Under the pieces are notes generated by a model. It was not told the origin of the DNA and made no database searches. It was given only the letters and a program-made list of their open reading frames with translations. Below, piece after piece: positions 9,641 through 32,561 of a stretch of DNA of 44,137 nucleotides (the first letter of the stretch is position 1; each line of letters starts with the position of its first letter). Location: contig JAJPIG010000009.1 in NCBI GenBank assembly GCA_021324855.1, positions 1 through 44,137 on the forward strand, in the 5' to 3' direction. A program made the translations under genes and the position numbers. The stretch is from Pseudomonadota bacterium (lineage in GTDB: Bacteria > Desulfobacterota > Binatia > Binatales > Binataceae).

Positions 9641-9675
9641 ATAGAGCCATCAGTCCAGCCATGGCTTGATCCTAA

Positions 9676-9707
9676 GTGGGTCCGGCCCGCAGAGCGGCCG
9701 GACCCAC
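9676..9707 (+). terminator. perfect 12-bp inverted repeat after the RRM gene
   Basis: GTGGGTCCGGCC (9676-9687) is followed by an 8-base loop and its exact complement (9696-9707). It lies 35 bases after the RRM stop codon. There is no T-run after it, so intrinsic termination is uncertain. It may act as a 3' stabiliser or as a terminator isolating the RRM gene from the small basic protein gene at 9759. Confidence 0.5.
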
Positions 9708-9758
9708 CACGCTCGGAGTCACGATTCGATCGCTTACCGCCCTTGGAGGGATAACGGT

Positions 9759-9929
9759 ATGGAAAAGCGTTTACGAGAGCGGGTCCGGAAGCAGAAACAA
9801 CAGACCAAGGAAGAGCGGCGCAATCAACGCGCCGCTCAACGCCGGGGACGCGAAGTTAGCGGGAAAGATGCCGACCTGAAGGACATCGTTCCCGGGCCGC
9901 AGCCCGGGCAAATCATCGACCTGTCCTGA
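9759..9929 (+). CDS. small basic protein ending in PGPQP motif
   Basis: This 56-residue, very basic, probably helical protein is rich in Lys, Arg, Glu and Gln over its first 35 residues. It ends in D-L-K-D-I-V-P-G-P-Q-P-G-Q. I recall small uncharacterised bacterial proteins with a charged helix and a terminal (G)IVPGPQP element, and this looks like one; no function is known to me. A GGAGGG ribosome site lies 8 bases before the ATG at 9759. The upstream in-frame region back to 9666 spans the hairpin and is not coding. Nucleic-acid or ribosome association would fit the charge, but is speculative. Confidence 0.7.
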   Translation: MEKRLRERVRKQKQQTKEERRNQRAAQRRGREVSGKDADLKDIVPGPQPGQIIDLS

Positions 9930-9963
9930 ACCCCAGGTGATTCGCCTCGGGCGCTTTGGCTCC

Positions 9964-11073: not shown

Positions 11074-11166
11074 CGTGCGCCGCCTCCCGCCAGTTCGAGC
11101 GCGGATAGTTGATTTCGCGAGGATACACCCGATCGACTGTCGGACGGGAGCCTATGGGATGGAAAT

Positions 11167-11670
11167 CTAGTAACTGCGCTGGATTTCGAAGCGGCCGCGT
11201 TCTTCGAGTCCGCCACCCTGATAGCAGGCGTAAAAGCCCTTGATTCGGTTTGCGCCGTCGAGGTTGCCATCGTAAAGACAGCTCGACCCGTCCTGCATCG
11301 AAATCCTGATCGCTAGATGCGTGCCGGTCATTTCGGCGCTGGCGAAGTTGCCGCTATCGTTCTGATTCAAGCAATCCATGGTGTCGAACGAGCACTTGTA
11401 AAAACCGCTGAGTCCGGATGGGTTGTTAATCATGGTGAGCGCGATTCGATTGAGCCCGCCACATCGCGTATTGACCATCATCGGTCGAAAATGGAGGCAT
11501 CCCACCCTCAGAGTGCCCTCCCACGAGCCGGTTGGATCAAAACTTTGGATGTTTGCGGTCGCGGTCTCGCCTGACGTCGGTTTGGACGCCGCGCATCCGA
11601 GCAACATCAAGGTGATCGTTGCGGCTGCGAACACGCAAGTCAGCGTGAGCGCGCGGGTACGACCATCCAT
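11167..11670 (-). CDS. putative lipoprotein of unknown function
   Basis: This 167-residue protein has an N-terminal lipoprotein signal: a basic start, a hydrophobic stretch (TCVFAAATITLMLL) and a lipobox L-L-G-C at about residues 23-26. Cys26 would be lipidated. The mature part has eight further cysteines in pairs (for example V-G-C-L, N-T-R-C-G, Y-K-C-S, M-D-C-L, S-C-L-Y, Y-A-C-Y), suggesting a disulfide-stabilised beta-rich domain. S-F-D-P-T-G-S-W-E-G-T-L at the start of the domain resembles small lipocalin-like or 'extracellular' domains, but I do not recognise a family. A longer frame to 11739 is open; the ATG at 11670 gives a proper signal peptide. Probably membrane-tethered in the periplasm or outer membrane. 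Confidence 0.65.
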   Translation of the reverse strand: MDGRTRALTLTCVFAAATITLMLLGCAASKPTSGETATANIQSFDPTGSWEGTLRVGCLHFRPMMVNTRCGGLNRIALTMINNPSGLSGFYKCSFDTMDCLNQNDSGNFASAEMTGTHLAIRISMQDGSSCLYDGNLDGANRIKGFYACYQGGGLEERGRFEIQRSY

Positions 11671-11984
11671 AACGGCCTCGCTTGCGCAGCACGTCGCGCA
11701 AGACCCCGACACCCTCGTGTCAGTTTGCGGCCCGGCCAACCTTGGCGTCGGAACGCAGGTTGAGTGAGCGTCGACCGACGCCGATCTGGATCAGACAAAA
11801 ACCGGTCAGCCGATGCAAGCCTGAGGCCTGAATCCGGCGCCGCTATAACATCAGGCGAAGCTTTTTTTGGCTGCAGCCGCCCGCATCACGCGGCGTTCGC
11901 CGTGCGGGGTCAAAATGGGGGGTTATTTTCGATTATCGACAGCGTGCGAAAGCCCGAAAAAAGTCTCGCTTCCCGATGCGGAGA
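11671..11984. other. structured intergenic region
   Basis: This 314-base region lies upstream of the lipoprotein gene and downstream of the minus-strand excisionase-like gene. It contains a GCCTGA/TCAGGC pair (11826-11831, 11851-11856) followed five bases later by T7 (11862-11868). It also holds a strong hairpin at 11880-11908 (CCCGCA/TGCGGG arms with an inner CGGCG-TT-CGCCG stem) and a candidate terminator for the excisionase-like gene (11957-11985). Open frames on the plus strand here have no family features. No plus-strand gene ends just upstream, so the T7 hairpin is unexplained. Confidence 0.5.
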
Positions 11985-11985
11985 T
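11957..11985 (-). terminator. candidate intrinsic terminator of the excisionase-like gene
   Basis: Read on the minus strand, the stop codon leads directly into TCTC(C)GC, an 8-base loop, GCGAGA, one C and then T6 (11962-11957). The stem is short (6 bp with one bulge), but the T-run is uninterrupted. Confidence 0.45.
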
Positions 11986-12209
11986 TAGTTGTCTCCGTCC
12001 GTTACGCCGCTGCGCTTCAGATTGCCCTCGAGGCACCAGCGATCAATAACTTCGGCGTTAAAGCGCCAGTCGGTGCCGATACGGAAGCCGGGGAGCTCTC
12101 CGCGCCGGAGCAGCTTGTAGATGGTCGACGGATGTACCCGAAGGTACGAGGAAAGCTCCTTTACCGTCATCACTTTCGGCATACTGTAGTTGTTCTTGTC
12201 AGTCGCCAT
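11985..12209 (-). CDS. excisionase-family (HTH_17) DNA-binding protein
   Basis: This 74-residue DNA-binding protein has the MerR/excisionase helix-turn-helix seen in HTH_17: KVMTVKELSSYLRVHPSTIY and then KLLRRGELPGFRIGTDWRF. It is followed by EVIDRWC. These small proteins act as recombination directionality factors on phage and plasmids, or as ordinary regulators. No integrase or attachment site is visible nearby, so a regulatory role is more likely. The start is uncertain: ATG at 12209 gives the usual short N-terminus, while an in-frame GTG at 12245 with an AAGGTGG element just upstream would add 12 residues. The gene is divergent from the PEBP protein gene. Confidence 0.8.
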   Translation of the reverse strand: MATDKNNYSMPKVMTVKELSSYLRVHPSTIYKLLRRGELPGFRIGTDWRFNAEVIDRWCLEGNLKRSGVTDGDN

Positions 12210-12409
12210 GACCTCACCCACTAAGTCTGAGAACGTTTGCTTCACCCCACCTTAAATCCCATGCTGAAGCTAACCCCTACTAACTTATGCCCAGTATTGA
12301 CTAAGCGTCACAATCAATCAAGTGGGGCGGTTAAAATACGATTGAAATAACGATGGACCGCGCGAACAGCTATATGCAAGAAAAACTTACGAGCGTGAGG
12401 AATTTTACG

Positions 12410-12958
12410 ATGTTCCACCTGCGAAATTTGTGGGTCGGGTTAATCCTCCGATGCGGATTGTGTCTTTCAGTCATCGCGATGGCTTCGCAGGCGTACCCCG
12501 CGGAAACGGCGCATTTCTCGTTAAGCAGCACCGCGTTCGCTGATAACGCGAAAATTCCCGCGCAATACAGTTGCAGCGGCGAAAATCAATCGCCGCCGCT
12601 GCTCTGGCACAATCCACCCGCCAACACGCGCTCCTTCGTGTTGATCGTGGACGATCCCGATGCGCCTGCAGGCGATTTCATTCATTGGGTGGTATTTGAT
12701 ATCCCGGCTGACACGCATTCGCTCAGACCGGGCATCGACCGGAGAGATCCTCCGCCGCAAGGCACCAATAGCTTCGGCCGCGTCGGCTACGATGGACCCT
12801 GTCCGCCGCCCGGTCCGGCTCATCACTACCATTTTCATTTGAGCGCGCTCGATTCGATGCTTGGGCTGAATCCCGGTGCATCCGCCGCCGAGGTCCAGTC
12901 TCAAGTTGCGGTCCATCGGATTGCCACGACAGAACTGGTCGGTGTTTTCGCCCGTTAG
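12410..12958 (+). CDS. YbhB/YbcL (PEBP-like) protein with signal peptide
   Basis: This 182-residue member of the phosphatidylethanolamine-binding-protein superfamily has a signal peptide (about residues 1-31, hydrophobic core WVGLILRCGLCLSVIAM, ending near Q-A-Y-P-A), so it is probably periplasmic. The family motifs are FVLIVDDPDAPAGDFIHWVV (about 80-99), FDIPADTHSL, the G-Y-D-G-P-C-P-P-P-G loop and H-H-Y-H-F-H-L, which line the anion-binding pocket. The biochemical role of bacterial YbhB proteins is not known. The ATG at 12410 is preferred to 12353 because it has a TGAGGA site at good spacing and puts the signal peptide at the N-terminus. Confidence 0.9.
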   Translation: MFHLRNLWVGLILRCGLCLSVIAMASQAYPAETAHFSLSSTAFADNAKIPAQYSCSGENQSPPLLWHNPPANTRSFVLIVDDPDAPAGDFIHWVVFDIPADTHSLRPGIDRRDPPPQGTNSFGRVGYDGPCPPPGPAHHYHFHLSALDSMLGLNPGASAAEVQSQVAVHRIATTELVGVFAR

Positions 12959-13134
12959 CGACGATTAAACTTTGTTCCGAATGGAGTCGTTTTGGAGCAG
13001 GTCGATGCGCCCCGTGGCTTAACCGTGGCTCCGTGCACGTGGAATCCCGCCATGGGTTGCATCCGGCCATCACTCGCGGAAGGATGGCCGAAGAGATTTC
13101 CCGCCGATGCCGGCGGTGGACCTGCGAAGCCACG

Positions 13135-14247
13135 ATGGGCGATCGACGCGAGATAAACCCGCTCTATAACCAACATCGGCTGAAGCTCGGAACCTTCTCG
13201 TCCAATTTGAGCGGCGGTTGCGCGATCACCACGATCGACGGTGTGTTGCAGGCCACTTGGCCGGACACGCTCGAGCTTGCGCGAATGGCAGACGAGATGG
13301 AGTTCGAAGCGCTGGTGCCGGTCGGCCGATGGAAGGGCTTCGGCGGCGTTACCAACTTCAACGGCGCCGGATTCGAATGCCTTACGTGGGCGGCCGGAAT
13401 TGCGGCCTCGACCAAGCGCTGCGGAATTTTTTCAACCACGCACGTCCCGACCATCCATCCAGTGATGGCGGCGAAGCAGGTCACGACCATCGACCACATC
13501 AGCAACGGCCGGTTCGCGCTGAATATCGTCACCGGTTGGTATACCGGCGAGATCGACATGTTCGGCGAAACGCTGATGGATCATGATCAGCGTTACGATC
13601 GCGCGCTGGAGTGGCTCGAAATCCTGAAGCTGCTCTGGACCCGGGAAGAGGAGTTCGACTATGTCGGTCGCTTCTACCAGGTGCGCAAGGGATGGCTCGC
13701 GCCCAAGCCGCTCCAGAAGCCGCACCCGGTCGTGATGTGTGCGGGTGGCTCGGGCAAAGGGCGCGACTTCGCCGCGCGACATTGCGACGTTGCTTTCGTT
13801 GCCTGCAATACCGAGGATCTCGATGAAACCCGGGCGCGCATCGCCGACTATCGCCGCTACGCGCGCGAGGAATGTGGCCGCGAACTGATGATTTGGAGCA
13901 ACGCCTACATCGTGCAGGGGCCGACCGAGAAGGAAGCGCGCGACTTCCATCATTACTATGTCTACGAAAGGGGCGATTGGGAGGCGGCGACCAACCTGGT
14001 CGAGACGATGGGCGCGCGCACCGAGATTATGACCCCGGAAATCCTGCGCGCGATGAAGGCCAACTTCATCGGAGGATGGGGCGGTTATCCGCTGGTTGGG
14101 ACGCGCGATCAGATCGTCGATGGCCTTCGGATGATGTCCGGGCTCGGCCTCGACGGCACGCTGCTCTCGTGGCCGCGCTATATCGCGGGAATGCGTGAAT
14201 TCCAGACCGAGACCTTCCCGCTGCTCAAGCAGGCGGGTTTACGCTAA
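13135..14247 (+). CDS. LLM class flavin-dependent oxidoreductase (SfnG/RutA/SsuD-like)
   Basis: This 370-residue luciferase-like TIM-barrel protein is closer than the other two LLM proteins of this window to the FMNH2-dependent monooxygenases SsuD, SfnG and RutA. The basis is RLKLGTFSSNLSGG at the N-terminus, then FEALVPVGRWKGFGGVTNF (about 57-75), CGIFSTTHVPTIHPVMAAK and SNGRFALNIVTGWYTGE (about 129-145), and LMDHDQRYDRALEWLEIL. These enzymes cleave sulfonates, sulfones or pyrimidine rings. The substrate is not identifiable here, and no reductase gene is adjacent. The start is uncertain: in-frame starts at 13033 and 13084 exist, but homology begins after the ATG at 13135. No strong ribosome site is visible. 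Confidence 0.87.
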   Translation: MGDRREINPLYNQHRLKLGTFSSNLSGGCAITTIDGVLQATWPDTLELARMADEMEFEALVPVGRWKGFGGVTNFNGAGFECLTWAAGIAASTKRCGIFSTTHVPTIHPVMAAKQVTTIDHISNGRFALNIVTGWYTGEIDMFGETLMDHDQRYDRALEWLEILKLLWTREEEFDYVGRFYQVRKGWLAPKPLQKPHPVVMCAGGSGKGRDFAARHCDVAFVACNTEDLDETRARIADYRRYAREECGRELMIWSNAYIVQGPTEKEARDFHHYYVYERGDWEAATNLVETMGARTEIMTPEILRAMKANFIGGWGGYPLVGTRDQIVDGLRMMSGLGLDGTLLSWPRYIAGMREFQTETFPLLKQAGLR

Positions 14248-14283
14248 GCGATTGTCCCTTTTGCTCTCCGGCGGAAGAAGCAT

Positions 14284-15060
14284 CTAGCGACGCGGAGTGG
14301 CTGGACCACCTCCGCCACCTGAAAAGCCGCCTGCACCCGCATAGCCGCCGATGATCGCGCCCTCCAGCACCGCCGCCGCAGCGGTAGAGTAAAGCGCGAT
14401 TGCTCCCATTCCGGGAGCCGGAGCAATTGGCGCCGCACCGCAAGCGACCGTCGTGCTTTGATTCGGACCAATAGTCACAGATTGCGAAGGATTGGCGAGC
14501 GCGGTGACCTGGACCGTTCCCTGACGCGTATAAACGTCGGTGAAATTGAGGCAGTTCGGATAATTCGCGCGATGGACGTTCTGATGGTACGCGGTGTCGA
14601 AATCGGTGCCGCGCGCCGCCGCGATTGCGTTCGGCGTATGCACTTCGAAGTTCGGCGTGGTACCCGAAGTCACATGCACGATCGATCGCATCAGGCCTGA
14701 AAACAGGCTCACCCGGGTCGAGACCGCGCCGCCGGCGCCCAACGTCTGGTCGTTGAGCACCAGGTCGCTCGAGTCATACATATCGAGCGTGCTTTGATCG
14801 TTGAGCAGGATCATCAGACGGCCGTTAGTTCCGGTCGTGAAGTGGTCGCCTCGCATCACGCCCAGACCCACCGCGATCGGCACCGGCTTCGACGCACGCA
14901 CGAGCCTGACGTCGCCTGCATAGGTCTGAACGGAGCCGACCGCCTGCGCGCCTGCTGTCGAAACCCACAGTAGTAAAGTTGGAAGGACGACAATTGCGGC
15001 AAATGTTATGGAGTAATGTCTGAACCCAAAGCCCTTTCGGTAATCATTGCGCAATAGCAC
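14284..15060 (-). CDS. FecR-domain exported protein with glycine-rich C-terminus
   Basis: This 258-residue protein has an N-terminal signal sequence (about residues 17-39, ITFAAIVVLPTLLLWVSTAGA). A FecR-like domain follows (about 45-165): GDVRLVRASKPVPIAVGLGV, MRGDHFTTGTNGRLMILL and a later TPNAIAAARGTDFDTAY. The FecR fold is beta-rich and in other bacteria senses or scaffolds in the periplasm. There is no adjacent sigma factor or TonB receptor, so it is unlikely to be a FecIR regulator. The C-terminal about 45 residues are Ala/Gly-rich (GAIIGGYAGAGGFSGGGGG), perhaps a membrane or matrix-anchoring tail. Start codon GTG at 15060, with a GAGGAGG site only 3 bases upstream; TTG at 15054 has better spacing. 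Confidence 0.75.
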   Translation of the reverse strand: MLLRNDYRKGFGFRHYSITFAAIVVLPTLLLWVSTAGAQAVGSVQTYAGDVRLVRASKPVPIAVGLGVMRGDHFTTGTNGRLMILLNDQSTLDMYDSSDLVLNDQTLGAGGAVSTRVSLFSGLMRSIVHVTSGTTPNFEVHTPNAIAAARGTDFDTAYHQNVHRANYPNCLNFTDVYTRQGTVQVTALANPSQSVTIGPNQSTTVACGAAPIAPAPGMGAIALYSTAAAAVLEGAIIGGYAGAGGFSGGGGGPATPRR

Positions 15061-15245
15061 TCGCCTCCTCGCAAACTGGGTCCGCCCACACCGCGCGTAC
15101 TAATTAACACGCCAGATGCCTCAGCCCAACACGGGTTGCCAAAAAATAACATCATTACGCGCGATTTAACATAGATGGCATTTGCCCCGAGTTTGCTTTT
15201 GTCTCCGTCATTTTGCACCGTAAGAATGTTGGAGGTGACGGACTC

Positions 15246-16733
15246 ATGAGCGGCCGCAATGGATTATCGCGATCGGCAAAGATTCGTGCCCGTCTGTCCC
15301 ATCCGGTGATCGATTGTGACGGACATTGCGCCGAATTCGAGCCGGTTTTGCTCGACTACCTGCGCGAAATCGGTGGTCCCGGCATCGTCGAACGCTACAA
15401 GTCCCTGCCTGAGAATCCGTTTTCCTACCGATGGCACAAACTGACGCCTGCCGAGCGGCGCGCAGAGCGCGTCCCGCGTCCCAACTGGTGGGGCCATCCA
15501 ACCAGTAATACCCTCGATCGTGCGACCAGCTCGCTACCGAAGCTGATGTACGAGCGGATCGGCGAGATGGGCCTTGATTTCTGCGTGCTCTACCCGAGCA
15601 TCAACCTGAATTCATCGCATATTGGCGATGCCGAGGTGCGACGCGCTGCCTGCCGCGCGTTCAACCTGTATCAATCCGAAGTTTTTCGTGAGTTTGCCGA
15701 TCGCCTGACGCCGGTCGCGGTGATTCCGATGCACACGCCGGAGGAGGCGATCGAAGAACTCGACTACGCGGTCGGCACGCTCCATATGAAGGCCATCGTG
15801 ATGCCGGCCTACGTGCGCCGCCCGATCCCGGCCCTCGCGGCGAAAGCGCCCGAGGTCGCCAACCATCTACAATGGCTCGACACCTACTGCCTCGACAGCG
15901 ACTACGATTACGATCCGGTGTGGCGGCGATGCGCCGAGCTCAGGGTCGCGCCGACCTTCCATTCGCGCGGCACCGGCCTAGGGACCCGCGTTTCAATCTC
16001 GAATTTCACCTATAACCACATCGGGCATTTCGCCTACTCCGCCGAAGGCATCTGCAAGGCGATCTTCCTGGGCGGCGTGACGCGGCGCTTTCCGGGGTTG
16101 CACTTTGCGTTCCAGGAAGGGGGCGTCGGGTGGGCGCGCTCGCTCTACGGCGATCTCGTTAGCCATTGGAAGACGCGCAATCCCGCCGCCGTCGCATCGC
16201 GCAATCCCGCCCTTCTCGACCACGAAATGTTTCGCGATCTTGCGCTACGCTACGGGGGCAAGCGCTATGCCGATAAGTTCCCGATCAAGCCGGGCGACGT
16301 TTCGATGGTGATGTGGGGGACGCCGGAGCGCGATGAAGACCTCGATGAATTCGCGCGCTGCGGGATCGAGCGTGATGAGGACATCCGCGATCTGTTCGTG
16401 AACAATTTCTTTTTCGGATGCGAGGGCGATGACCCGTTAACCGGTCTCGCTTTCCGCCGCAAGCTGAATCCGTTCGGTGCGCGCCTCAACGCGATCTACG
16501 GCTCTGATCTAGGGCACTTCGATCTTCCCGACATGCGCGATGCAGCGTACGAGGCGTGGGAGCTGGTCGAAAACGGCGTCATCGACGAGGCCGAGTTCCG
16601 TGAGTTCGTGTTCGCCAATCCAGTCCGGCTGCACGCCGGGATGAATCCGGATTTTTTCAGTGGCACCGCCGTCGAGCGCGAGGCCGCGGCGGTGATGGCC
16701 GAAACCAGCGCGGCCGCGAGCGCGGCGCGCTGA
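15246..16733 (+). CDS. amidohydrolase family protein (Amidohydro_2 type)
   Basis: This 495-residue metal-dependent hydrolase or decarboxylase of the amidohydrolase-2 (ACMSD-like) superfamily has visible elements. These are the N-terminal metal motif region VIDCDGHCAEFEP (about 20-32), GEMGLDFCVLYPS, PTFHSRGTG (second metal-binding His), FAFQEGGVGWARSLYGDL and the late IYGSDLGHFDLPDM with the conserved aspartate. The first metal motif reads D-G-H-C rather than the usual H-x-H, as in several uncharacterised aerobic-degradation members. Substrate unknown. The start at 15246 is well fixed by GGAGGTGA (15231-15238). It lies 185 bases from the divergent FecR-domain gene and 12 bases upstream of engB. 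Confidence 0.85.
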   Translation: MSGRNGLSRSAKIRARLSHPVIDCDGHCAEFEPVLLDYLREIGGPGIVERYKSLPENPFSYRWHKLTPAERRAERVPRPNWWGHPTSNTLDRATSSLPKLMYERIGEMGLDFCVLYPSINLNSSHIGDAEVRRAACRAFNLYQSEVFREFADRLTPVAVIPMHTPEEAIEELDYAVGTLHMKAIVMPAYVRRPIPALAAKAPEVANHLQWLDTYCLDSDYDYDPVWRRCAELRVAPTFHSRGTGLGTRVSISNFTYNHIGHFAYSAEGICKAIFLGGVTRRFPGLHFAFQEGGVGWARSLYGDLVSHWKTRNPAAVASRNPALLDHEMFRDLALRYGGKRYADKFPIKPGDVSMVMWGTPERDEDLDEFARCGIERDEDIRDLFVNNFFFGCEGDDPLTGLAFRRKLNPFGARLNAIYGSDLGHFDLPDMRDAAYEAWELVENGVIDEAEFREFVFANPVRLHAGMNPDFFSGTAVEREAAAVMAETSAAASAAR

Positions 16734-24847: not shown

Positions 24848-25153
24848 TTGGCGTTCAGAAAAGTCGCGCAGCGCGGCGAAGTCGCGGAAGGCAGCGGGCG
24901 CATCATCGAGGTCGCTCCCGGTCGCTTCATCGCCTTGTTTAACGTGGGCGGAAACTTTTACGCGCTCGACAACGAATGTCCGCACGAAGGCGGGCCGCTC
25001 GGCGAAGGTGATGTCGATCGCGGATGCGTCACCTGCCCGTGGCATGGCTTTCGTTTCGATCTATCAAATGGCGCATGCCTCAACGCGCCGCGGCTTAAGG
25101 TCGCGAGCTTTGCGGTTCGCCTCGAAGGCGAAGATGTCCTGGTCGATGCATGA
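24848..25153 (+). CDS. Rieske [2Fe-2S] ferredoxin-like protein
   Basis: This 101-residue single-domain Rieske protein has cluster ligands C44-P-H46 and C63-P-W-H66, the classic C-x-H...C-x2-H pattern. They lie in loops of a small beta-barrel, followed by G-F-R-F-D-L-S-N-G. This is the nitrite reductase small subunit/dioxygenase ferredoxin type. An extra cysteine (C60) lies near the second loop. The start is a TTG at 24848 with a very strong AAGGGAGG site 5 bases upstream; a TTG at 24827 immediately after argJ has no such site. No oxygenase or reductase is adjacent, so the electron partner is unknown. Its TGA overlaps the methyltransferase ATG (ATGA). Confidence 0.88.
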   Translation: MAFRKVAQRGEVAEGSGRIIEVAPGRFIALFNVGGNFYALDNECPHEGGPLGEGDVDRGCVTCPWHGFRFDLSNGACLNAPRLKVASFAVRLEGEDVLVDA

Positions 25154-26109
25154 TGCCGGGTCGGGCACGACTTGATGCCGCGATAATCCGTGAGCGGATC
25201 GAGCGGGTGTACGCCGAGCAGACCGTGCTCGATGAAGCTGGCGTCAGCCACAAAATTCTACCGATCGCAGTGACTCCCGAGCGCGGCGCGTTTATCGCGG
25301 ATCTATGCCGCGCCGAGCGGCCATCGAGGACGCTCGAAATCGGGATGGCGTGGGGACTCTCGACGCTCCACATCCTGCTCGCGCTGGCCGAGGATCGTGG
25401 CGATGCGGCCGGCGAGCCGCATCTCGTGATGGATCCGTTCCAGGGTTCGCGCTTCCGCAATGCGGCGTTGCGCTTGGTGGGCGAAGTCGGCGCGGAAGCG
25501 ATGCTCGAGTTTTATCCTGAGCCGTCGGAGATCGTGCTGCCGCGGCTGCTCACGGCCGGCAGGCAATTCGATCTGGTGTTCATCGACGGCGACCATCGCT
25601 TCGATCCCGGCTTTGTCGATTTCTTTTACGTCCATCGATTGCTGAAGCCCGGCGGCCTTGTAATCTTTGATGACGTGCTGTTCGACGGCATCTATCTGAC
25701 CACGCAATGGGCCGAAACTAATCTTGGTTACGAGCCGGTCGCGACCCATCCGCCGGCGCCGCGACGTTCACGTCGCAGCCAAATCAGCCGGCTGCAGCGC
25801 GCGCACATTGGCGCGTGGCGAAAGCCGATGCGCGAGATCGAGCGCGATCGCTTCCACTTTGTTCCGTTCTTCAACGGCTTCGTGCCATTGAAGGACATCC
25901 CGAAACCCGACCCTCGACGCGTCGAGCGCAATCGGCTGAATCATGACGGTCTGCTCGCGTTGCGGGCGGGCGATCGCGTGGGCGCGCGGCGCGCCTTCGC
26001 GGCGGCGCTGAAGCTCGATCCATCGTACACGGCGGGTTATCTGCGCTGGATGCGGACTTTCCTGCCGCCGGGCATCGCGGCGATGCTGACCGGGCGAACG
26101 CGCGGCTGA
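25150..26109 (+). CDS. class I SAM-dependent methyltransferase with C-terminal TPR-like/RTFLP tail
   Basis: This 319-residue protein begins with a Methyltransf_24-type Rossmann domain. The SAM-binding strand is TLEIGMAWGLSTLHILLAL (about 61-79), the acidic end of strand 4 is DLVFIDGDHRFDPG (about 140-154), and LLKPGGLVIFDDVLFDGIYL follows. The last about 57 residues are a separate module, G-L-L-A-L-R-A-G----AR-AF-AAL---P then MRTFLP---AAMLTGRTRG. It is nearly the same as the tails of the four GT2 enzymes encoded next door. A small O-methyltransferase acting on the glycan or its lipid is a plausible role. The ATG is coupled to the Rieske gene (ATGA). The 3' end faces a GT2 gene tail-to-tail, 22 bases apart. 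Confidence 0.85.
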   Translation: MMPGRARLDAAIIRERIERVYAEQTVLDEAGVSHKILPIAVTPERGAFIADLCRAERPSRTLEIGMAWGLSTLHILLALAEDRGDAAGEPHLVMDPFQGSRFRNAALRLVGEVGAEAMLEFYPEPSEIVLPRLLTAGRQFDLVFIDGDHRFDPGFVDFFYVHRLLKPGGLVIFDDVLFDGIYLTTQWAETNLGYEPVATHPPAPRRSRRSQISRLQRAHIGAWRKPMREIERDRFHFVPFFNGFVPLKDIPKPDPRRVERNRLNHDGLLALRAGDRVGARRAFAAALKLDPSYTAGYLRWMRTFLPPGIAAMLTGRTRG

Positions 26110-26194
26110 GCCGGGCGCCGAATTTCGATCGTCAGGCTTTGCGGGTGCGGCCGGTCAACATCCGCGCGAGCGGCGTCGGTAGAAACGTGCGCAT
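26050..26194. repeat. imperfect inverted repeat from tail-to-tail coding ends
   Basis: The last codons of the methyltransferase (26050-26103, plus) and of the GT2 gene (26194-26141, minus) encode the same RTFLP tail. Aligned codon by codon they match at 39 of 54 bases by hand count. The arms lie 37 bases apart. This is an inverted arrangement of two gene ends rather than a designed site. It may favour local recombination. Confidence 0.5.
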
Positions 26195-27064
26195 CATCCG
26201 AAGGGTGTTTTTGAGATTGATCGGGTCGTAGCCAAGCGCACCTATAAAATCGCGGCGGGCGTCGATGAAGCGCCCCTCGCGCATCGCGAGCAGTCCGCGA
26301 TGGCCCAATTCGTTGGCGTGCGCGCGCCGGTTGTCCTTCTCGATCGATTCCATCAGCCGCCGCCCGCGAGCTCCGTATCGCGCGATGACCATCTTGCCGA
26401 GCGCCTTGCGGCCTTCGTTGTTGGTCTCGATGTAATCGGGGTAGGGCAGAATCCGGTAGCGGACGAGAATTTCGGGGACGTAATGGAAATGGCCGAGCTC
26501 GCGGAGCCGCAGCCACATGTAAACGTCCTCGCACGCCTTGAAGACGCCCGGCGCCTCGAAGAAGCCGCCGACCTCCTCGTAGGCTGTGCGCCGGATGACG
26601 GCGAGGCTCGGCACGATCGGCCACCAATGCGCAAGCATCTCATCCAGTGTCGGCGCGTGGTCGCGTTCCGGAAGAACGAAGGCGCCGCGCTCGCGGCCGC
26701 TGTCCTCGAACATTTGCGCATTCGAGGAGACCAGCACGCACCCCGGATCGGTCTCGAGAAGCGGAACGGTATGCGCGAGCTTTTCCGGCATCCATTCGTC
26801 GTCGGCGTCGAGGAACGCGATGAACTCGCCGCCGGCGGCACGAATCCCGGTGTTCCATGCCGCGCTGCATCCTCCGCGTTCACGATTCACGATCCGGATG
26901 CGATCGCCGTAGCGGCTGAGGATCGCCGCGGTGCCGTCGGTCGAGCCGTCGTTGACCGCGATCAGCTCGAAATCCCGCCAGGTTTGCGCGAGCCCGCTTT
27001 CGAGCGCGCGCTCCAGCGTGCGCTCGCTGTTGTAAACCGCCGTGATGATCGAGACGGACGGCAT
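26132..27064 (-). CDS. glycosyltransferase family 2 with C-terminal TPR-like/RTFLP tail (copy 1)
   Basis: This 310-residue GT-A enzyme has SVSIITAVYNSERTLERALE at the start, AVNDGSTDGTAAIL (about 37-50), the DxD site FLDADDEWMPEKL (about 82-94), and ACEDVYMWLRLRELGHFHYV (about 175-194) with the probable catalytic ED. The C-terminal module (about 250-310) is H-R-G-L-L-A-M-R-E-G---DAR--F--AL--DP, then NTLRMMRTFLP---ARMLTGRTRK. It starts 4 bases after the preceding GT2 gene on the minus strand, so they are cotranscribed. Sugar and acceptor unknown. It is closely related to the next two upstream genes, consistent with tandem duplication. Confidence 0.9.
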   Translation of the reverse strand: MPSVSIITAVYNSERTLERALESGLAQTWRDFELIAVNDGSTDGTAAILSRYGDRIRIVNRERGGCSAAWNTGIRAAGGEFIAFLDADDEWMPEKLAHTVPLLETDPGCVLVSSNAQMFEDSGRERGAFVLPERDHAPTLDEMLAHWWPIVPSLAVIRRTAYEEVGGFFEAPGVFKACEDVYMWLRLRELGHFHYVPEILVRYRILPYPDYIETNNEGRKALGKMVIARYGARGRRLMESIEKDNRRAHANELGHRGLLAMREGRFIDARRDFIGALGYDPINLKNTLRMMRTFLPTPLARMLTGRTRKA

Positions 27065-27068
27065 CGGG

Positions 27069-27998
27069 TCAAGCGTACCGCGAGCGCCCGGTCAATCGCC
27101 GCGCGATGCCTTCAGGCAGGAAGGTGCGCATCAGGCGCAGCGCATTCCTGATGCTCGTCGGATCGCAGCGGAGGGCATAAGCAAAATAGCGGCGTGCGTC
27201 CGCGCTCCGCCCCTCGCGCATTGCGCGCAGCCCCAGGTACCCGAGCTGATTGACGTTATAGCTTCGCTGCCGATTGCGCGTTCCCCGCGCCAAACGCCGC
27301 CCCTTCTCGCCGTAGCGCTCGACAATTCGTCGCAGGGCGTATTTTTGCCCGCCCTTGTACTGCCAAATGTTGTCGGGAAAAGGGCGCGCGGAATACATCG
27401 CGAGTTTTTCCGGCACATAATGAAAATGTCCGAGTTCGCGAAGCCGCAGCCACGTGTAGATGTCGGAGCAGGTGTTGTAGACGCCCGGCACCGTGAAGAA
27501 GTATCCGACCTGCTCGAGTGCGCTGCGGCGGACCACCGCCGTAGTCGAGATGATTGGCCACAGATGCGTCAGCATCTCGTCGAGCGTTGGCGCGTGAGCC
27601 AGCTCCGGGTGGACGAAATCGTCAAGGGTTTCGCCGGTCTCGAGAAACTTTCCCGCGTTGGAGAAGACCAGCACGCAATCCGGATCGCGTTCGAGCGGCG
27701 ATACCGTCATCGCAAGCTTATTCGGCATCCAGATATCGTCGGCATCGATCCACGCGATAAACTCGCCGCGCGCCGCGCGGCATCCCGTGGTCGACGCGCC
27801 TTCGCATCCGCTGCGCGCCTGCCTGATCACCCTGATCCGATCACCATAGCTGGCGAGGATCGCGGGTGTTGCGTCGGTCGAACCGTCATCGACCACGATC
27901 ATCTCGAAATCATCAAACTGCTGGGCGAGCGCGCTGTCGAGCGCGCGCCGCAGCGTGCGCGCGCCATTGTAAACCGGTGTGACGACCGAGACTTTCAT
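27069..27998 (-). CDS. glycosyltransferase family 2 with C-terminal TPR-like/RTFLP tail (copy 2)
   Basis: This 309-residue GT2 paralogue has KVSVVTPVYNGARTLRRALD at the start, VVDDGSTDATPAIL, the metal site WIDADDIWMPNKL and TCSDIYTWLRLRELGHFHYV. The acidic pair here is S-D rather than E-D, still keeping the aspartate. The tail reads LGLRAMREGRSADARRYF, then AL--DP and NALRLMRTFLP--IARRLTGRSR. The ATG at 27998 is overlapped (ATGA) by a 12-codon reading frame that carries the strong ribosome site of this locus, so translation may depend on it. It lies 212 bases from the GT2 gene upstream on the same strand. Confidence 0.9.
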   Translation of the reverse strand: MKVSVVTPVYNGARTLRRALDSALAQQFDDFEMIVVDDGSTDATPAILASYGDRIRVIRQARSGCEGASTTGCRAARGEFIAWIDADDIWMPNKLAMTVSPLERDPDCVLVFSNAGKFLETGETLDDFVHPELAHAPTLDEMLTHLWPIISTTAVVRRSALEQVGYFFTVPGVYNTCSDIYTWLRLRELGHFHYVPEKLAMYSARPFPDNIWQYKGGQKYALRRIVERYGEKGRRLARGTRNRQRSYNVNQLGYLGLRAMREGRSADARRYFAYALRCDPTSIRNALRLMRTFLPEGIARRLTGRSRYA

Positions 27999-28033
27999 CG
28001 ATTCCGCTGCACAACTTTATCCGAGATTTTCAT
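27995..28033 (-). CDS. possible 12-codon leader peptide coupled to the GT2 gene
   Basis: This short frame reads MKISDKVVQRNR. It has a strong GAGGGGG ribosome site 7 bases upstream of its ATG at 28033, and its TGA overlaps the start ATG of the GT2 gene (ATGA). The GT2 gene has no such site close to its own start. The first 13 bases (ATGAAAATCTCGG) match the GT2 gene start (ATGAAAGTCTCGG) at 12 positions, so it may be a relic of a duplicated gene start that now serves translation coupling. Whether it is translated is unproven. Confidence 0.4.
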   Translation of the reverse strand: MKISDKVVQRNR

Positions 28034-28210
28034 GATTGTTCCCCCTCAAGCCTCGCGGAAGACCGCGATGGCCACCTTGGAACCGATTATCGCCGCAACC
28101 ATCACTCGGCCCGGCCAACGCGAGCCAGCTCCGGTGAGCATATTTTTTCCTCTCCAAGGTTCGCCCGAGTTGGCGTTTCAAGACCCTAAAGCGAGCAATT
28201 TATAGGACTG

Positions 28211-29152
28211 TCAGCCGGCGCGCGACCGACCGGAGAGCGCGCGCGCCATCGAGGCGGGCAGGAAGGTCCTGACCAGACGCAGCGCGTTCTTGATGTCACC
28301 GGGGTTGTGGCGCACGGCTCGCATGAAGAACCGGCGCGCGTCGGCGGTTCGTCCCTCGCGCATCGCGACCAGCCCCAGATGGCCGAGATTGTGCCGATGG
28401 TCACGCTTGATCGCACGATTCATCCCGCGCATTAACCGTCGGCTCGCCGCCGCGCCGTAGCGCTCCCTTACCAGGCGCACAAAGACCTTGCGGCCTGCCG
28501 CGTTTTTCTCGATGTAATCGGGATAGTCGGAGGCCTCGAGCATCACGAGCGGCTCCGGAATGTAATGGAAATGCCCCAGCTCGCGCATCCGCATCCACAG
28601 AAAACCGACGCCGTTGGCGCGATACGCGCCGGGCTCCTCCCAAAAGCCGCCCGCCTGGTCGAAAGCCGCGCGGCGCATCACGGTCATGCTCTCCACGATC
28701 GGCCAGTAATAGTTGAACATTTCGTCCAGCGCGGGCGCGTGCGCCGACTCCGGGCCGACATAGGGACCGAGCACACGCCCGGCGCGATCGATCAGCGTGC
28801 CATTGGAATAGACCAGCACGCATCCGTGATCGCGATCGAGCACGGGCACGGTGCGCGCCAGCTTGTCGGGCAACCAAACATCGTCGGCATCGAGGAAGGC
28901 GAGATACTCGCCCTGCGCATGCTGTTGGATGGCGCGATTTCGCGCGGGACCGTTGCCACGGCGCTCGCCGCCGATCACGATCACGCGTCCGGCGTAGCGC
29001 TCGAGGATTTCTGCGGTCGCGTCAGTCGAACCATCGTTTGCGACGATAATTTCGAACGCGGGCGCCCCGCGCTGCGCGAACGCGCTGTCGAGCGCGCGCG
29101 CGATGGTTGCCGCCCCGTTGTAGACCGCCATGATGACCGAGACCTTGATCAC
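28211..29152 (-). CDS. glycosyltransferase family 2 with altered catalytic-base motif (copy 3)
   Basis: This 313-residue GT2 paralogue has IKVSVIMAVYNGAATIARAL, VANDGSTDATAEIL, FLDADDVWLPDKL (metal site) and LWMRMRELGHFHYI. Where the related enzymes carry E-D or S-D before the WLR motif, this protein has RANGVGFLWMRM: no acidic residue. The catalytic base thus seems missing, though a nearby residue could substitute. The tail reads GLVAMREGRTADARRFF, then NALRLVRTFLP--MARALSGRSR. The start GTG at 29152 overlaps the sulfotransferase stop (GTGA). An ATG-type start in the same frame further up lies within the sulfotransferase gene. Confidence 0.87.
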   Translation of the reverse strand: MIKVSVIMAVYNGAATIARALDSAFAQRGAPAFEIIVANDGSTDATAEILERYAGRVIVIGGERRGNGPARNRAIQQHAQGEYLAFLDADDVWLPDKLARTVPVLDRDHGCVLVYSNGTLIDRAGRVLGPYVGPESAHAPALDEMFNYYWPIVESMTVMRRAAFDQAGGFWEEPGAYRANGVGFLWMRMRELGHFHYIPEPLVMLEASDYPDYIEKNAAGRKVFVRLVRERYGAAASRRLMRGMNRAIKRDHRHNLGHLGLVAMREGRTADARRFFMRAVRHNPGDIKNALRLVRTFLPASMARALSGRSRAG

Positions 29153-29949
29153 GCGCCCGGCCCCGATTCGCGATAGCCGGCAAGCTCGCACAAACGCCGG
29201 TAGATCTTGAGCGCCTTCGCGGGCACGGCGCCGCTCGCCTGCGAGCGTCGGAGCGCCGGTTCGGCGAACCCGCGATCGATCGGTGCGTGCAGCGCCGCCT
29301 CGATCTCATCCCAGCGACTGCCATCCATGAGCTGGTCGTAATGCACGAAGATCCAGTGGCCTCCGGCAGGATGCTGAATCTTCAGGATGTAACGATAGAT
29401 GTCGTACCAGATTCGAAGCGCCCAATCGCGGTTCATCGCGACGTCGCTGAGATAATTGGCGGTGGCGCACTCGGTCACGATGCTTGCCGCGGTGATCGCC
29501 GGATGACGGAAGGCGCAAATGAACACCGCGTCCGTCACGAACGGACGCCATGCGCCGAGCGTGTATGAGAAGCGCGGATCCTTGAAGCAGTACGGTTGGC
29601 GGGCGGTGACGGCCTCGATGCGCCGCGTGATCTCAGGCGTCGTCGCGATCTTGACCGACGGCGGCAGCGCAGCGAGCCATCGTTGCGGATAATGCATTTT
29701 CAGATCGCGTCGCCGCTGCGGCCGGAACAGCTTGGTCGTCAGACGCCGGCGATACTTGCGCATCGGTCCGGCGATCAGATCCTCGTTGATCGCGTTGATC
29801 TCATGATCCTCGAATTGACCCTTGGGATTCGCGGGACGCAGGCCCGCTTCATCGACAAGGTCGCCCATGAAGTAGCCGGCGCGTGCGAGCAGTCCCGCAG
29901 CGAGGCTGGTGCCGCTGCGCCCGCTTCCGAGAATCAGGCAATTACGCAT
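29149..29949 (-). CDS. sulfotransferase family protein
   Basis: This 266-residue PAPS-dependent sulfotransferase-like protein has the 5'-phosphosulfate-binding loop in LILGSGRSGTSLAAGLL (about 5-21). A central R-H-P motif (FICAFRHPAITAAS) corresponds to the 3'-phosphate-binding region, and FKDPRFSYTL carries the D-P-R element of prokaryotic and Stf0-like members. It presumably adds sulfate to a sugar or lipid of the glycan made by this locus; the acceptor is unknown. It starts 6 bases after the VIT gene and overlaps the next GT2 gene by 4 bases. Confidence 0.85.
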   Translation of the reverse strand: MRNCLILGSGRSGTSLAAGLLARAGYFMGDLVDEAGLRPANPKGQFEDHEINAINEDLIAGPMRKYRRRLTTKLFRPQRRRDLKMHYPQRWLAALPPSVKIATTPEITRRIEAVTARQPYCFKDPRFSYTLGAWRPFVTDAVFICAFRHPAITAASIVTECATANYLSDVAMNRDWALRIWYDIYRYILKIQHPAGGHWIFVHYDQLMDGSRWDEIEAALHAPIDRGFAEPALRRSQASGAVPAKALKIYRRLCELAGYRESGPGA

Positions 29950-29955
29950 CGATCG

Positions 29956-30687
29956 TCAGCGTCCCCCAAAAATCCAGCCGGCCCCGTAGGTCACGATCGC
30001 GGCCGCCACGCCGACGGCGAGGCTCTCGAGCCCGCTCCTCCACCATGAACGGGAAGTAAGTATCGTTTTCAGCGCGCCGACCGCGAACAGCGCCGCGATC
30101 GTTACGAACGCCGAGACCATTACCGCGACCGACGGAGCGAGAATTGTGTACGGAATGATCGGAATCGCCGCGCCGAGCAGGTACGAAATGCCGACGCGTA
30201 GCGCCGAACGGTGCGGCACTTCGAGATGCTCATGATGAAGCCCCAGCTCCTCGCGCATCATCACGTCGCTCCAGCGTTCGGGGTCGGCCGTGATGTGCGC
30301 GACGATCTCGTCGAGCAGCCGTCCGCTGAAGCCCTTGTTGCGATAAATCGCGCGGACCTCGTCGCGCTCGCGTTCGGGCCAGCGCGCCATCTCGTCGCGT
30401 TCCCGCGCAATTTCACTGTGATAGAACTCGAGCTGCGAGCGCGAAGAGATAAAGGCCGCCGCGCCCATCGAGATTCCCCCGCCCAGCATCTCGGCAATCC
30501 CCGCCATCACGACCACGCGCGCCACCGAAAAGGCCGCCGCGACCCCCGAAGTTACGGCAAACGATGCCACCAGGCCGTCGTTGAGCCCGAGCATCACATC
30601 GCGCATCCAGCCGGGTTCGGCGGCCTGCTCGTTTTCGGGATGCTGCGGGTGGTGCTCAAGCCTGCGTTTGGGAATCGGCAATGCCAC
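29956..30687 (-). CDS. VIT/CCC1 family Fe(II)/Mn(II) transporter
   Basis: This 243-residue membrane protein of the VIT1/CCC1 family has DVMLGLNDGLVASFAVTSGV, the first membrane helix with the conserved N-D-G, at about 30-49. GGGISMGAAAFISSRSQLEF lies at about 68-87. A Glu-rich cytoplasmic segment (about 90-150, with E-R-D-E-M and P-E-R-E-R-D-E) corresponds to the metal-binding domain, then three C-terminal helices follow. Family members move Fe(II) or Mn(II) out of the cytoplasm or into vacuoles. GTG at 30687 has a CGGAG site 7 bases upstream and is preferred; it overlaps the kinase 3' end by 32 bases. Its position between glycan genes is unexpected. Confidence 0.87.
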   Translation of the reverse strand: MALPIPKRRLEHHPQHPENEQAAEPGWMRDVMLGLNDGLVASFAVTSGVAAAFSVARVVVMAGIAEMLGGGISMGAAAFISSRSQLEFYHSEIARERDEMARWPERERDEVRAIYRNKGFSGRLLDEIVAHITADPERWSDVMMREELGLHHEHLEVPHRSALRVGISYLLGAAIPIIPYTILAPSVAVMVSAFVTIAALFAVGALKTILTSRSWWRSGLESLAVGVAAAIVTYGAGWIFGGR

Positions 30688-31549
30688 TTGACTTCTCCGG
30701 GATGTAATCGGTGCGCCGGTCACGGACCTCCGCCGAGCGACACCACCTCAGGGCTGATGTCGTTTCATTGCGCGCGGGCCTCGATGCGCGCCGATCGAGC
30801 CGCGCCCGCATCCGCAGCAGCCGCCCGGCGACGCGGCGCAGTTCCGTGCGATCGTGCCCCGGTTCCAGGTACGCGCAAAGAAAACGGAGCCGCCCGGCGC
30901 GGTTGACAAACCGGCCGATGCTGCGATCGAGATGCATAAGGTTGCTGAGCCTGCGACGGATCGCGACGCTGCGCGCGCTTGCGAAATCCTCGAGATCGAG
31001 GAAGTAGACGCGGTAGCCGTCAGCGTCGGTTTCGAGCATCAGGTTGGTCTCCTGCAGATCGCGCGTATAGAGACCTGCGTCGTGCATTCGGCGGACTGCC
31101 TTCGCGACCACGCGCGTGATCGCGACCCGCCGGCTCATATCGCGCCGCAATTCACCGCGCCGACCCAGCGCGAAGACACTCAGCGTCTGAGCGCGTTGGA
31201 GTGCCTCGCTCACCAGGTATGAGCGGGTGACCGCGCCTAGCGCCGAACGAATTTCGAGCGCGGCGAGCGGCGCGGGATGTTCGATGCCGGCCGCTGCGAG
31301 CATCGCAGAGCCGCGTACGGCGCGCTGTGCGCGAGATCCGCGGATTCGCTCGATGAGCCCGCTGACCGTCGAGCGCGTCTCAATCTGCTTCACAAAGACT
31401 CTGTCGCCATCTTTAAGGTCAAGCAGACCGGCGCGGACCCGCCCCTCGGCTTTATGGACAGTGAAGCCCGCACCCCCGCATAGCTCATCAAGATGCGGCG
31501 CGAGATCGGCCCATCGCGGGGAACGGGCGTAAACCAGATGCGAACGCAT
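30656..31549 (-). CDS. lipopolysaccharide kinase (WaaP/Kdo kinase-like) family protein
   Basis: This 297-residue protein-kinase-like fold is of the Kdo/WaaP type. The nucleotide-binding lysine is K54 in RVFVKQ. The catalytic loop reads Y-T-R163-D164-L-Q-E-T-N169, where the family usually has H-x-D, so the His is replaced by Arg. The metal-binding D185 is in YFLDLEDF. WaaP-type enzymes phosphorylate lipopolysaccharide core sugars at the inner membrane; other members act on proteins. The start ATG at 31549 is preferred to 31660, because the longer frame adds only an unsupported Arg-rich segment overlapping the divergent gene. It begins the minus-strand glycan operon and diverges from the GT2 gene at 31641. 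Confidence 0.8.
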   Translation of the reverse strand: MRSHLVYARSPRWADLAPHLDELCGGAGFTVHKAEGRVRAGLLDLKDGDRVFVKQIETRSTVSGLIERIRGSRAQRAVRGSAMLAAAGIEHPAPLAALEIRSALGAVTRSYLVSEALQRAQTLSVFALGRRGELRRDMSRRVAITRVVAKAVRRMHDAGLYTRDLQETNLMLETDADGYRVYFLDLEDFASARSVAIRRRLSNLMHLDRSIGRFVNRAGRLRFLCAYLEPGHDRTELRRVAGRLLRMRARLDRRASRPARNETTSALRWCRSAEVRDRRTDYIPEKSSGIADSQTQA

Positions 31550-31640
31550 GCGCGCATAGCTTAGCCGATCATCGCGCGATGGGCATCCGTTGGCGATCGC
31601 GCGCGGCGGCCGGGTGCATGTGCTAGCGTGGCCATCCACG

Positions 31641-32561
31641 ATGCGTGCGTCGGTGATCATACCCGTCTATAACGGCGCGGCGACGCTCGCCGCCGCGATC
31701 GACAGCGCGCTCGACCAGGATTTCACCGGCGGCTTTGAGGTGATTGTGGTCAATGACGGATCGACCGACGCGACCGGCGCGGTGATCGATCGTTATCGCG
31801 GCCGGATCAAGGCCGTGATGCGCAGCAACGGCGGTCTCTCGGCAGCGCGCAATTCGGGCGCAGCCGAAGCGACCGGCGACTACCTCGCTTTCCTCGATGC
31901 TGATGATTTGTGGCATCGCGAGCGGCTGCGCGCGACCGTCGAGCCGCTCGATCGGAATCCCGCCGCGGTGGTCGCCTATTGCGATGCGGTCCAGGTCGAT
32001 GAGGCCGGCCGCGAAATCGCGCCTAACTTTGTCAGCCCCGGGCTGGCGCGGGCCCCGACGATGTCCGATTTGCTGGAGCGATGGTGGCCGATCCTACCGA
32101 GCGCCGCGACGGTCCGGAGATCGACGTTCGAACAGCTCGGCGGGTTTTTCGCTCCGATGCGCTCGTACGAGGACATGGATTTCTGGATGCGCGCGCGCGA
32201 GATGGGCGAGTTCGAGTACGTGCCGCGCGCGCTGGTGGTCTACCGCGTGACGCCGGCATCGGAACGTCTGGTGAAGTACGAGCAGAGCTATGCATTGTTC
32301 GTTGAGCGGATGACTACGCGTTATGGCGCTGCTGTGCGGCCGCTGATTCGCGCGATTCGCCATGCTCACGCGACGGCGCTCGGCTCGCGCGGGCTTATCG
32401 CGATGAATCGCGGCGCGATGGCCGAGGCGCGCCGCAGCTTCATCCGCGCGCTCCGCTATGAGCCTGGCCTCCGCAACGCGCTCAGGCTCGCGCGAACCTT
32501 TCTGCCGCGGACCATCGCGCGCGCGCTTGCCGGCCGCAGCGCGCGGATGCCTGCGGACTAG
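31641..32561 (+). CDS. glycosyltransferase family 2 with C-terminal TPR-like/RTFLP tail (copy 4)
   Basis: This 306-residue enzyme has ASVIIPVYNGAATLAAAID, VVNDGSTDATGAVI, the metal site FLDADDLWHRERL and SYEDMDFWMRAREMGEFEYV, with an intact catalytic E-D. The C-terminal module is GLIAMNRGAMAEARRSF, then AL--EP and NALRLARTFLP-TIARALAGRSA, with five extra residues. It is the only GT2 of the locus on the plus strand and is less similar to copies 1-3 in the middle part. ATG at 31641 is chosen because the GT-A fold begins right there; the frame extends upstream to 31590 without support. Divergent from the kinase gene, 91 bases away. Confidence 0.9.
   Translation: MRASVIIPVYNGAATLAAAIDSALDQDFTGGFEVIVVNDGSTDATGAVIDRYRGRIKAVMRSNGGLSAARNSGAAEATGDYLAFLDADDLWHRERLRATVEPLDRNPAAVVAYCDAVQVDEAGREIAPNFVSPGLARAPTMSDLLERWWPILPSAATVRRSTFEQLGGFFAPMRSYEDMDFWMRAREMGEFEYVPRALVVYRVTPASERLVKYEQSYALFVERMTTRYGAAVRPLIRAIRHAHATALGSRGLIAMNRGAMAEARRSFIRALRYEPGLRNALRLARTFLPRTIARALAGRSARMPAD

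Follow-up and report, generated by a model that had tools for sequence, protein, structure and literature searches.

Five neighbouring genes in a 44,137-nt stretch of Binataceae DNA (the whole stretch analysed, here called the window) end in the same C-terminal tail of ~60–63 residues, which closes one SAM-dependent methyltransferase (MT) and four GT2 glycosyltransferases. The tail is homologous across these two folds, recurs in other genomes, is under constraint and, in part of the genomes, shows synteny with LPS-type genes. The MT is a 319-residue Methyltransf_24 protein (PF13578; 25150..26109, + strand; Pfam 1.6e-16, 61.6 bits against a cut-off of 26.3; AlphaFold mean pLDDT 89) with its catalytic part at about residues 10–240 and the tail at 259–318 (25924..26106, +), the latter seen both in the model and by the tail profile (E 2.5e-30). 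Convergent with it is GTa (26132..27064, − strand; PF00535 7.8e-35), whose gene end lies 22 bp away, inverted, and whose tail spans 26135..26320 (−; E 4.8e-34; AlphaFold mean pLDDT 87). GTb (27069..27998, −; PF00535 1.1e-36) has its tail at 27072..27257 (−; E 8.4e-34), GTc (28211..29191, −; PF00535 9.8e-31) at 28217..28402 (−; E 3.0e-33) and GTd (31590..32561, +; PF00535 1.1e-35) at 32367..32549 (+; E 4.9e-28); all five tails are themselves rows of the profile that gives these E values. The four GT2s reach 107–127 bits with PF00535, where the cut-off is 23.3. Two further enzymes of the window are tail-less: a Sulfotransfer_3 sulfotransferase (29149..29949, −; PF13469 2.2e-9) matched the tail neither by blastp nor by profile, and a Kdo/WaaP-type LPS kinase family protein (30656..31660, −; PF06293 1e-13) gave at most 2.5 bits against the tail profile with filters off.

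The alignment of the five tails has 22 invariant columns over about 62. By blastp, the MT matches the four window GT2s within the tail at 40–52% identity (E 2e-15 to 3e-6), and the only MT–GT2 match outside it has an E of 0.14 or worse. When a profile is trained on 39 GT2 tails, with no MT included, it recovers the MT at 71.3 bits; of 2000 shuffles of the MT run against it, 26 scored at all, the highest at 10.7 bits. The end module that the original prediction had placed on these five neighbours is therefore confirmed. Third codon positions among the five tails are 34–52% identical, which indicates protein homology and not a recent DNA copy. The TPR-like half of the tail had also been assigned to a GT2 at 17322, and this did not hold up: with all filters off, the place meant (residues 270–284) scores 1.2 bits, another part of the protein scores 2.0 bits, the whole-protein E of 0.082 in an 8-protein search is not significant, and Pfam shows no TPR at that place.

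AlphaFold models of the MT and GTa predict the same arrangement behind both folds: a TPR-like hairpin, a third helix, a break at LP and a short basic helix. The helices fall at residues 255–272, 276–289, 294–302 and 307–314 of the MT; in GTa the tail comprises the end of helix 216–262 and helices 266–279, 284–292 and 297–302. The first half of the module had been described as a TPR unit and the second as a basic helix; the TPR-like hairpin stands, and the second half is refined to a third helix, with (R)T(F/Y)LP at its end, and then the short basic helix. The MT model has a class I MT fold: its top fold match is mycobacterial MeT1 (6g80; Z 21.9, rmsd 2.3 over 184 residues), and further COMT-like enzymes score within 1 of it. 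For GTa the match is to 6p61 (Z 26.7, rmsd 1.7 over 187 residues), a GT-A fold. These whole-model lists are filled by catalytic domains and so carry little information on the tail. Like the TPR domains of Pfam (TPR_2, TPR_14), the first half has the TPR residue pattern in a 34-residue helix-turn-helix, with the helices predicted, and profile columns 3–44 align in register with PDB TPR proteins, weakly per unit. Unlike them, it is one unit, and its TPR_2 scores stay below the cut-off of 27 bits (MT 15.9, GTb 17.9, GTc 19.2, GTd 14.9); GTa has no TPR match in Pfam, just HemY_N, below its cut-off. Models and alignment show a single hairpin and no tandem superhelix, and the other half, with its conserved (R)T(F/Y)LP, does not belong to TPR. 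In a sequence search of the PDB the TPR columns were matched, with nothing notable for the LP half. Among the NCBIfam models listed for the window and related proteins none covers the tail, and the SunS model, in those window GT2s where it is listed, covers the catalytic part only. Behind the TPR part, the net charge is +4 to +7 in the seven tails examined (five from the window, two from the Acidobacteriota genome G871, below). Amphipathicity of the third helix reaches shuffle p 0.005–0.05 in the four GT2s of the window and is not significant in the window MT (0.13) or the two G871 tails (0.21, 0.48); for the last helix the five window tails are not significant (p 0.27–0.84) and the two G871 tails borderline (0.04, 0.05). 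The amphipathic signal is thus weak.

Within the uncultured family Binataceae (Binatota), 35 of 41 genomes carry the tail. The loci that we fetched hold 83 copies (scoring 31 bits or more, with the alignment extending to column 47), 77 of which end no more than 25 residues from the C-terminal end of their frame: 65 on GT2s, 14 on Methyltransf_24 MTs from 13 genomes in 6 genera, two on Methyltransf_9/23-type MTs of a further genus (g4), and two on fragments. The g4 proteins stop directly behind LP and have no last helix. Together with the g4 proteins, the fragments make up the four copies labelled as neither GT2 nor Methyltransf_24. One fragment, L079, is truncated where its contig ends and, as its sequence closely resembles a GT2 copy already listed from that genome, is possibly counted twice; the other, L058:553-729, is a 59-residue frame. 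On contig C25, a frame of 1104 residues probably does not encode a giant fusion, as Met763 opens an ordinary MT and codon-position G+C differs upstream. Sulfotransferases and kinases, on which tails had been hoped for, account for none of the 83 copies, though such enzymes occur in the same loci.

Beyond the family the tail is scarce. Among 80 MT loci from GTDB species genomes, the five from Binataceae all have it and the other 75, outside Binataceae, do not (0/75). Class-mates outside Binataceae gave 2 of 107 with a tail, both GT2-like and weak; 395 genomes drawn from the phylum gave two outside Binataceae (one GT2 with an RTFLP ending, one TPR-only); the genomes behind loci of other lineages gave 1 of 38, TPR-only; and the phylum of an Alphaproteobacterium gave 1 of 299, also TPR-only. 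The phylum of Candidatus Acidiferrum (Acidobacteriota) gave 4 of 199, three TPR-only plus G871. As 15–42 candidates per genome were scored in the class, phylum, alphaproteobacterial-phylum and Acidobacteriota surveys, weak copies may have been missed there. These few, mostly weak or TPR-only matches speak against wide occurrence of the Binataceae version. At the G871 locus, a related tail sits on six GT2s and one Methyltransf_11 MT, seven tails in all, and the locus adjoins an ABC ATPase; the Acidobacteriota and Binataceae tails match profile to profile with probability 96.8 and E 2.5e-10. The Acidobacteriota case is one genome. Two, and probably three, MT families have thus acquired the tail. 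The window MT is accordingly not the sole exception that the original prediction had allowed for. A second possibility raised there, a generic GT2 ending, is partly right: one GT2 subfamily ends this way and GT2s of other lineages carry weaker relatives, but in the source genome just 4 of 18 GT2s have the tail.

In genus g6 purifying selection is equally strong on the tail of the MT and on its catalytic part (median dN/dS 0.240 vs 0.225; 15 pairs, 6 genomes with the MT). With the sole exception failing and the generic ending half true, movement of the module between enzyme families and its retention by selection are supported. The g6 MT lies in a conserved neighbourhood (glyoxalase, AI-2E transporter, SDR) with no GT2-like frame, viewed over 7–12 kb in five genomes and over 3.7 kb in the sixth. 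In g6 and in genome G057 the tailed MT does not adjoin tailed GT2s, and G017 has a tailed MT and no second tail at E 1e-6, so that docking of MT and GT2 through matching tails cannot be required there. On a tail tree (66 of 88 rows and 62 columns, leaving out rows below 60 bits, partial or with an identical core), five changes between MT and GT2 labels are needed, compared with 12.9 on average when labels are shuffled. The AU test does not reject a single clade for the MTs (p 0.24); one acquisition inside Binataceae therefore stands, and the tree does not prove repeated ones. The GT2s are the probable source of the tail, and we infer a direction from GT2 to MT.

Our best reading, held with about even confidence, makes the tail a transplantable module by which surface-glycan enzymes dock through their C-terminal ends. 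A tail from the GT2 subfamily would have been added behind the catalytic part of the Binataceae Methyltransf_24 MT; its TPR-like hairpin would present the third helix (ending in TFLP/TYLP) and the short basic helix, and these two may keep enzymes that would otherwise be soluble at one site on the inner side of the cytoplasmic membrane, through a common partner or lipid head groups. The GT2s and the MT might then take turns on a single acceptor, either lipid-linked or LPS-core. We count as a precedent the O-antigen terminator MT WbdD (E. coli O9a, Klebsiella O3). In the sections of the sources cited, the non-catalytic C-terminal region of WbdD, which has a membrane-associated amphipathic helix, recruits the polymerase WbdA and so unites, at the membrane, an MT and a glycosyltransferase that serve one glycan pathway (PMC3482155, PMC11231755). 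The cases differ in that WbdD has a coiled coil and a recruitment site, with no homologous partner tail indicated in those sections, whereas the Binataceae module is on both kinds of enzyme. Nor does the window MT, at 319 residues and with short tail helices, have in its model a long helix behind the catalytic part, as a WbdD-type coiled-coil ruler would. ORF7 of Klebsiella O4, set beside the tail by description only, likewise has TPR-like helices in a glycan-terminating enzyme, there in a bundle before a coiled coil; the part of the paper describing it mentions no tail common with its glycosyltransferases (PMC11231755). CheR–TPR fusions also join an MT to TPR units, but these, as far as the cited section goes, are chemosensory and not a case of a tail common to glycosyltransferases (PMC3447774). 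In the titles and abstract openings of the open-licence literature searched for the shared tail, its parts and Binatota, no such tail is described. A broader and more doubtful proposal is that any enzyme receiving the tail (GT2s and two or three kinds of MT) joins one putative membrane-bound glycan assembly line with lineage-matched versions, much like the docking domains of multi-enzyme natural-product pathways.

Some GT2s, such as SunS, TarP and TarS, have oligomerising C-terminal helical parts, and the tail could be such an element, forming homo-dimers or -trimers of each enzyme and gained likewise by the MT, with no mixed complex. The window GT2s resemble these proteins in having a GT-A fold and then C-terminal helices; TarP and TarS chains are among the GTa fold matches, with the aligned range reaching model residues 283–307. 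We know of no oligomerising GT2 of this kind whose C-terminal part also occurs in another enzyme family. WbdD goes from trimer to monomer on removal of its C-terminal helix, according to the section cited (PMC3482155), and a tailed MT standing alone, as in G017, also fits. By itself, however, oligomerisation leaves unexplained why one lineage-specific version is found on both GT2s and MTs of a locus, in two lineages, and we consider it rather unlikely. Less probable again is a structural cap, in which an extension of the GT2 C-terminal helix was fused to the MT by chance and kept as a stabiliser. The GTa tail does continue the long helix 216–262, and related endings occur on GT2s of several lineages; yet 14 of the 18 GT2s in the source genome have no tail, nor have the MT relatives outside Binataceae, two, probably three, MT families have gained it, and in the MT it is joined to the catalytic part via a low-confidence stretch (residues 241–250, mean pLDDT 61). 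A local gene-end accident between MT and GTa is very improbable and, as the sole explanation, refuted: the two are adjacent and convergent, as are the MT and a tailed GT2 in the genus mate G001, but tailed MTs span 13 genomes in 6 genera, some standing alone, the MT and GTa tails have diverged in DNA sequence, the g6 tail is constrained, and MT labels cluster strongly on the tail tree, where one origin is not rejected.

If the docking reading is right, the tail would give a sequence handle on which enzymes cooperate in surface-glycan assembly, a standing problem given how difficult it is to predict GT2 specificities and complexes. It would also offer a portable part for building enzyme assemblies, and would mark MTs that may belong to glycan pathways though encoded elsewhere, as in g6. 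That the window MT acts on a sugar hydroxyl is suggested only by its locus and by its likeness to MeT1, which we take to be a sugar methyltransferase. The gene order in the window is secA–argJ–MT–GT2s–sulfotransferase–VIT1–Kdo kinase, and in G013 it is secA–argJ–sulfotransferase–MT–two sulfotransferases–GT2–ABC protein–GT2–sulfotransferase–VIT1. The MT of G017 lies near argJ and a Kdo kinase, and LptD is present at the g4 locus.

Five neighbouring genes in the window end in a common module of about 62 residues: the Methyltransf_24 methyltransferase (MT; 25150-26109, + strand) and four family 2 glycosyltransferases (GT2s; 26132-27064, 27069-27998 and 28211-29191, all - strand, and 31590-32561, + strand). 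In blastp the MT tail was 40-52% identical to the GT2 tails (E 2e-15 to 3e-6), and outside the tail only a chance-level stretch was seen (E 0.14 or worse). A tail profile of 39 GT2 rows and no MT rows gave the window MT 71.3 bits, against 10.7 for the best of 2000 MT shuffles, confirming the shared ending put forward in the original prediction. Third codon positions of the window tails are only 34-52% identical, so they do not result from a recent copy. The GT2 at 17322, which had been credited with the TPR-like part, gave no significant match by profile or Pfam, even for half a tail.

AlphaFold models of the MT (27-row alignment, mean pLDDT 89) and of the GT2 at 26132-27064 (7 rows, mean pLDDT 87) predict the same tail elements on both folds: a hairpin (residues 255-272/276-289 in the MT; the end of helix 216-262 plus 266-279 in the GT2), a third helix (294-302; 284-292) and, beyond a break at the LP motif, a short last helix (307-314; 297-302). 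Only one hairpin is present; it resembles a TPR unit but scores below the Pfam cut-off, and the net charge C-terminal to it is +4 to +7. In shuffle tests the third helix was amphipathic in the four window GT2s (p 0.005-0.05) and not significantly so in the MT (p 0.13) or in two tails of G871, an Acidobacteriota genome (p 0.21, 0.48). For the basic last helix the moment did not reach significance in the window proteins (p 0.27-0.84), and the pair of G871 tails gave borderline values (p 0.04, 0.05).

The tail is real and conserved. With a 49-row profile it was found in 35 of the 41 genomes of the window's family, Binataceae (within Binatota in NCBI taxonomy), including 28/34 good-quality genomes and 15/17 genera, and in 2/107 other members of the class. 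Among the fetched loci, 83 deduplicated copies reach the RTFLP half; by Pfam, their hosts are 65 GT2s, 14 Methyltransf_24 proteins (one a 181-residue piece), two Methyltransf_9/23-type methyltransferases of genus g4, and two fragments, one of which may repeat an already counted GT2. The 14 Methyltransf_24 proteins are spread over 13 genomes and 6 genera, which disposes of the case held against the original prediction, that the window MT is the sole non-GT2 host. Of the 18 GT2s in the genome that the window comes from, 4 are tailed, all inside the window. This genome also has a second tailed Methyltransf_24, on contig C25 (L013:8857-12168, -); its open frame of 1104 residues is inflated, residue 763 being the probable start of the gene. 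In genus g15, short frames with a partial tail adjoin tailed GT2s (L063:6228-6410, -; L058:553-729, +) and are apparently broken gene copies.

The window reads secA-argJ-MT-GT2s-sulfotransferase-VIT1-Kdo/WaaP kinase, the sulfotransferase, VIT1-family transporter and Kdo/WaaP-type kinase lying at 29149-31660. Genome G013 has secA-argJ-sulfotransferase-MT-two sulfotransferases-tailed GT2-ABC protein (MsbA type)-tail-less GT2-sulfotransferase-VIT1, so that a sulfotransferase and VIT1 stand beside MT and GT2 in both; a cut frame after its VIT1 resembles a kinase end, with no Pfam match. In G021 the order is sulfotransferase-GT2-sulfotransferase-GT2-MT, with both GT2s tailed. The locus looks like one for LPS-core or O-chain modification. 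The expected spread of the tail to other folds holds for methyltransferases but not for the sulfotransferases and kinases of these same loci, which lack it.

Judging from the models, the tailed enzymes appear to have no evident membrane span, and such enzymes would need access to a lipid-linked acceptor located at the inner membrane. Sharing a tail could tether them to the surface of the membrane, to a partner that they have in common or to one another. When enzymes act on one glycan, a tail that they share is most plausibly interpreted as a putative dock. WbdD offers a precedent: the C-terminal region of this terminating methyltransferase recruits the mannosyltransferase WbdA and contains a membrane-associated amphipathic helix (PMC3482155, PMC11231755). 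The tail would be a variation on an already known principle, C-terminal recruitment of glycan enzymes; no description of such a tail was found in the open-licence papers searched. Alternatively, it could be a homo-oligomerisation element or a structural cap. Obligatory MT-GT2 pairing is unlikely because in G017 the tailed MT, which lies between argJ and a Kdo kinase, carries the only tail in the genome at E 1e-6.

Six genomes of genus g6 have the MT (L044, L117, L118, L130, L131, L238), in every case on a contig other than those of the tailed GT2s. It stands there away from sugar genes and in conserved surroundings (glyoxalase, AI-2E transporter, SDR); no GT2-like frame accompanies it over 7-12 kb in five genomes and 3.7 kb in G020. 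Median dN/dS there (6 genomes, 15 pairs) was 0.240 for the tail versus 0.225 for the catalytic part, and 0.257 and 0.253 for the tail halves: the MT tail is maintained by selection. The MT of G057, a genome from another genus, likewise sits among unrelated genes.

An MT-alignment scan of GTDB species genomes gave 80 MT loci. Five were tailed (L129-L133), all from Binataceae (G033, G006, G030, G001, G061), and none of the 75 outside the family was, 23 of these aligning well along the MT domain and the rest being distant methyltransferases. Many of the closer tail-less MTs stop at the aromatic motif after which the Binataceae tail starts; some extend 30-40 further, unrelated residues. Class-level distant relatives also lack it (G016, G014, G059, the second MT of G013, G078, G088), and at E 1e-6 neither G014 nor G016 shows a tail anywhere in its genome. 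Related endings do occur on GT2s outside the family, in G187 (same phylum, '..YLRTFLP..') and in G122 and G133 (class). From these sequence comparisons we therefore infer that the MT gained its tail within Binataceae, with a GT2 the likely donor. A single gain for all 14 MTs was not rejected (AU p 0.24).

A distant second lineage likewise has a locus in which GT2s and an MT carry a common tail, there with an MT of another family. In G871, the one genome of its family that the analysis covered and the one genome on which this pattern rests, six GT2s and one Methyltransf_11 share one tail version (L217, C1:1345000-1364900, at 8370-15518), adjoining an ABC ATPase and a GT4 on a 2.4 Mb contig. The MT tail is 38-57% identical to the six GT2 tails, and the G871 and Binataceae tail profiles match with probability 96.8 (E 2.5e-10) in an alignment of 45 columns that reaches as far as the LP motif. 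Weak matches were found in 3/395 other genomes of that phylum, on a GT2 wherever the host was identifiable. The tail is certainly present on two MT families, unrelated to each other, from two lineages. The g4 methyltransferases (L066:5255-6241, -; L064:5806-6726, -) are probably a third such family; the one scanned is TIGR04290-like, below cut-off. They lie 21-27 kb from tailed GT2s (G004, G018), in G004 within a large polysaccharide locus that also contains genes for GT4, FkbM-type and LptD proteins. Both terminate directly after LP and lack the last helix, and in G004 the profile match continues beyond the stop codon. Finally, one protein of the g4 polysaccharide locus (L128:5186-6694, +) combines a GT2 domain with a class I methyltransferase domain.
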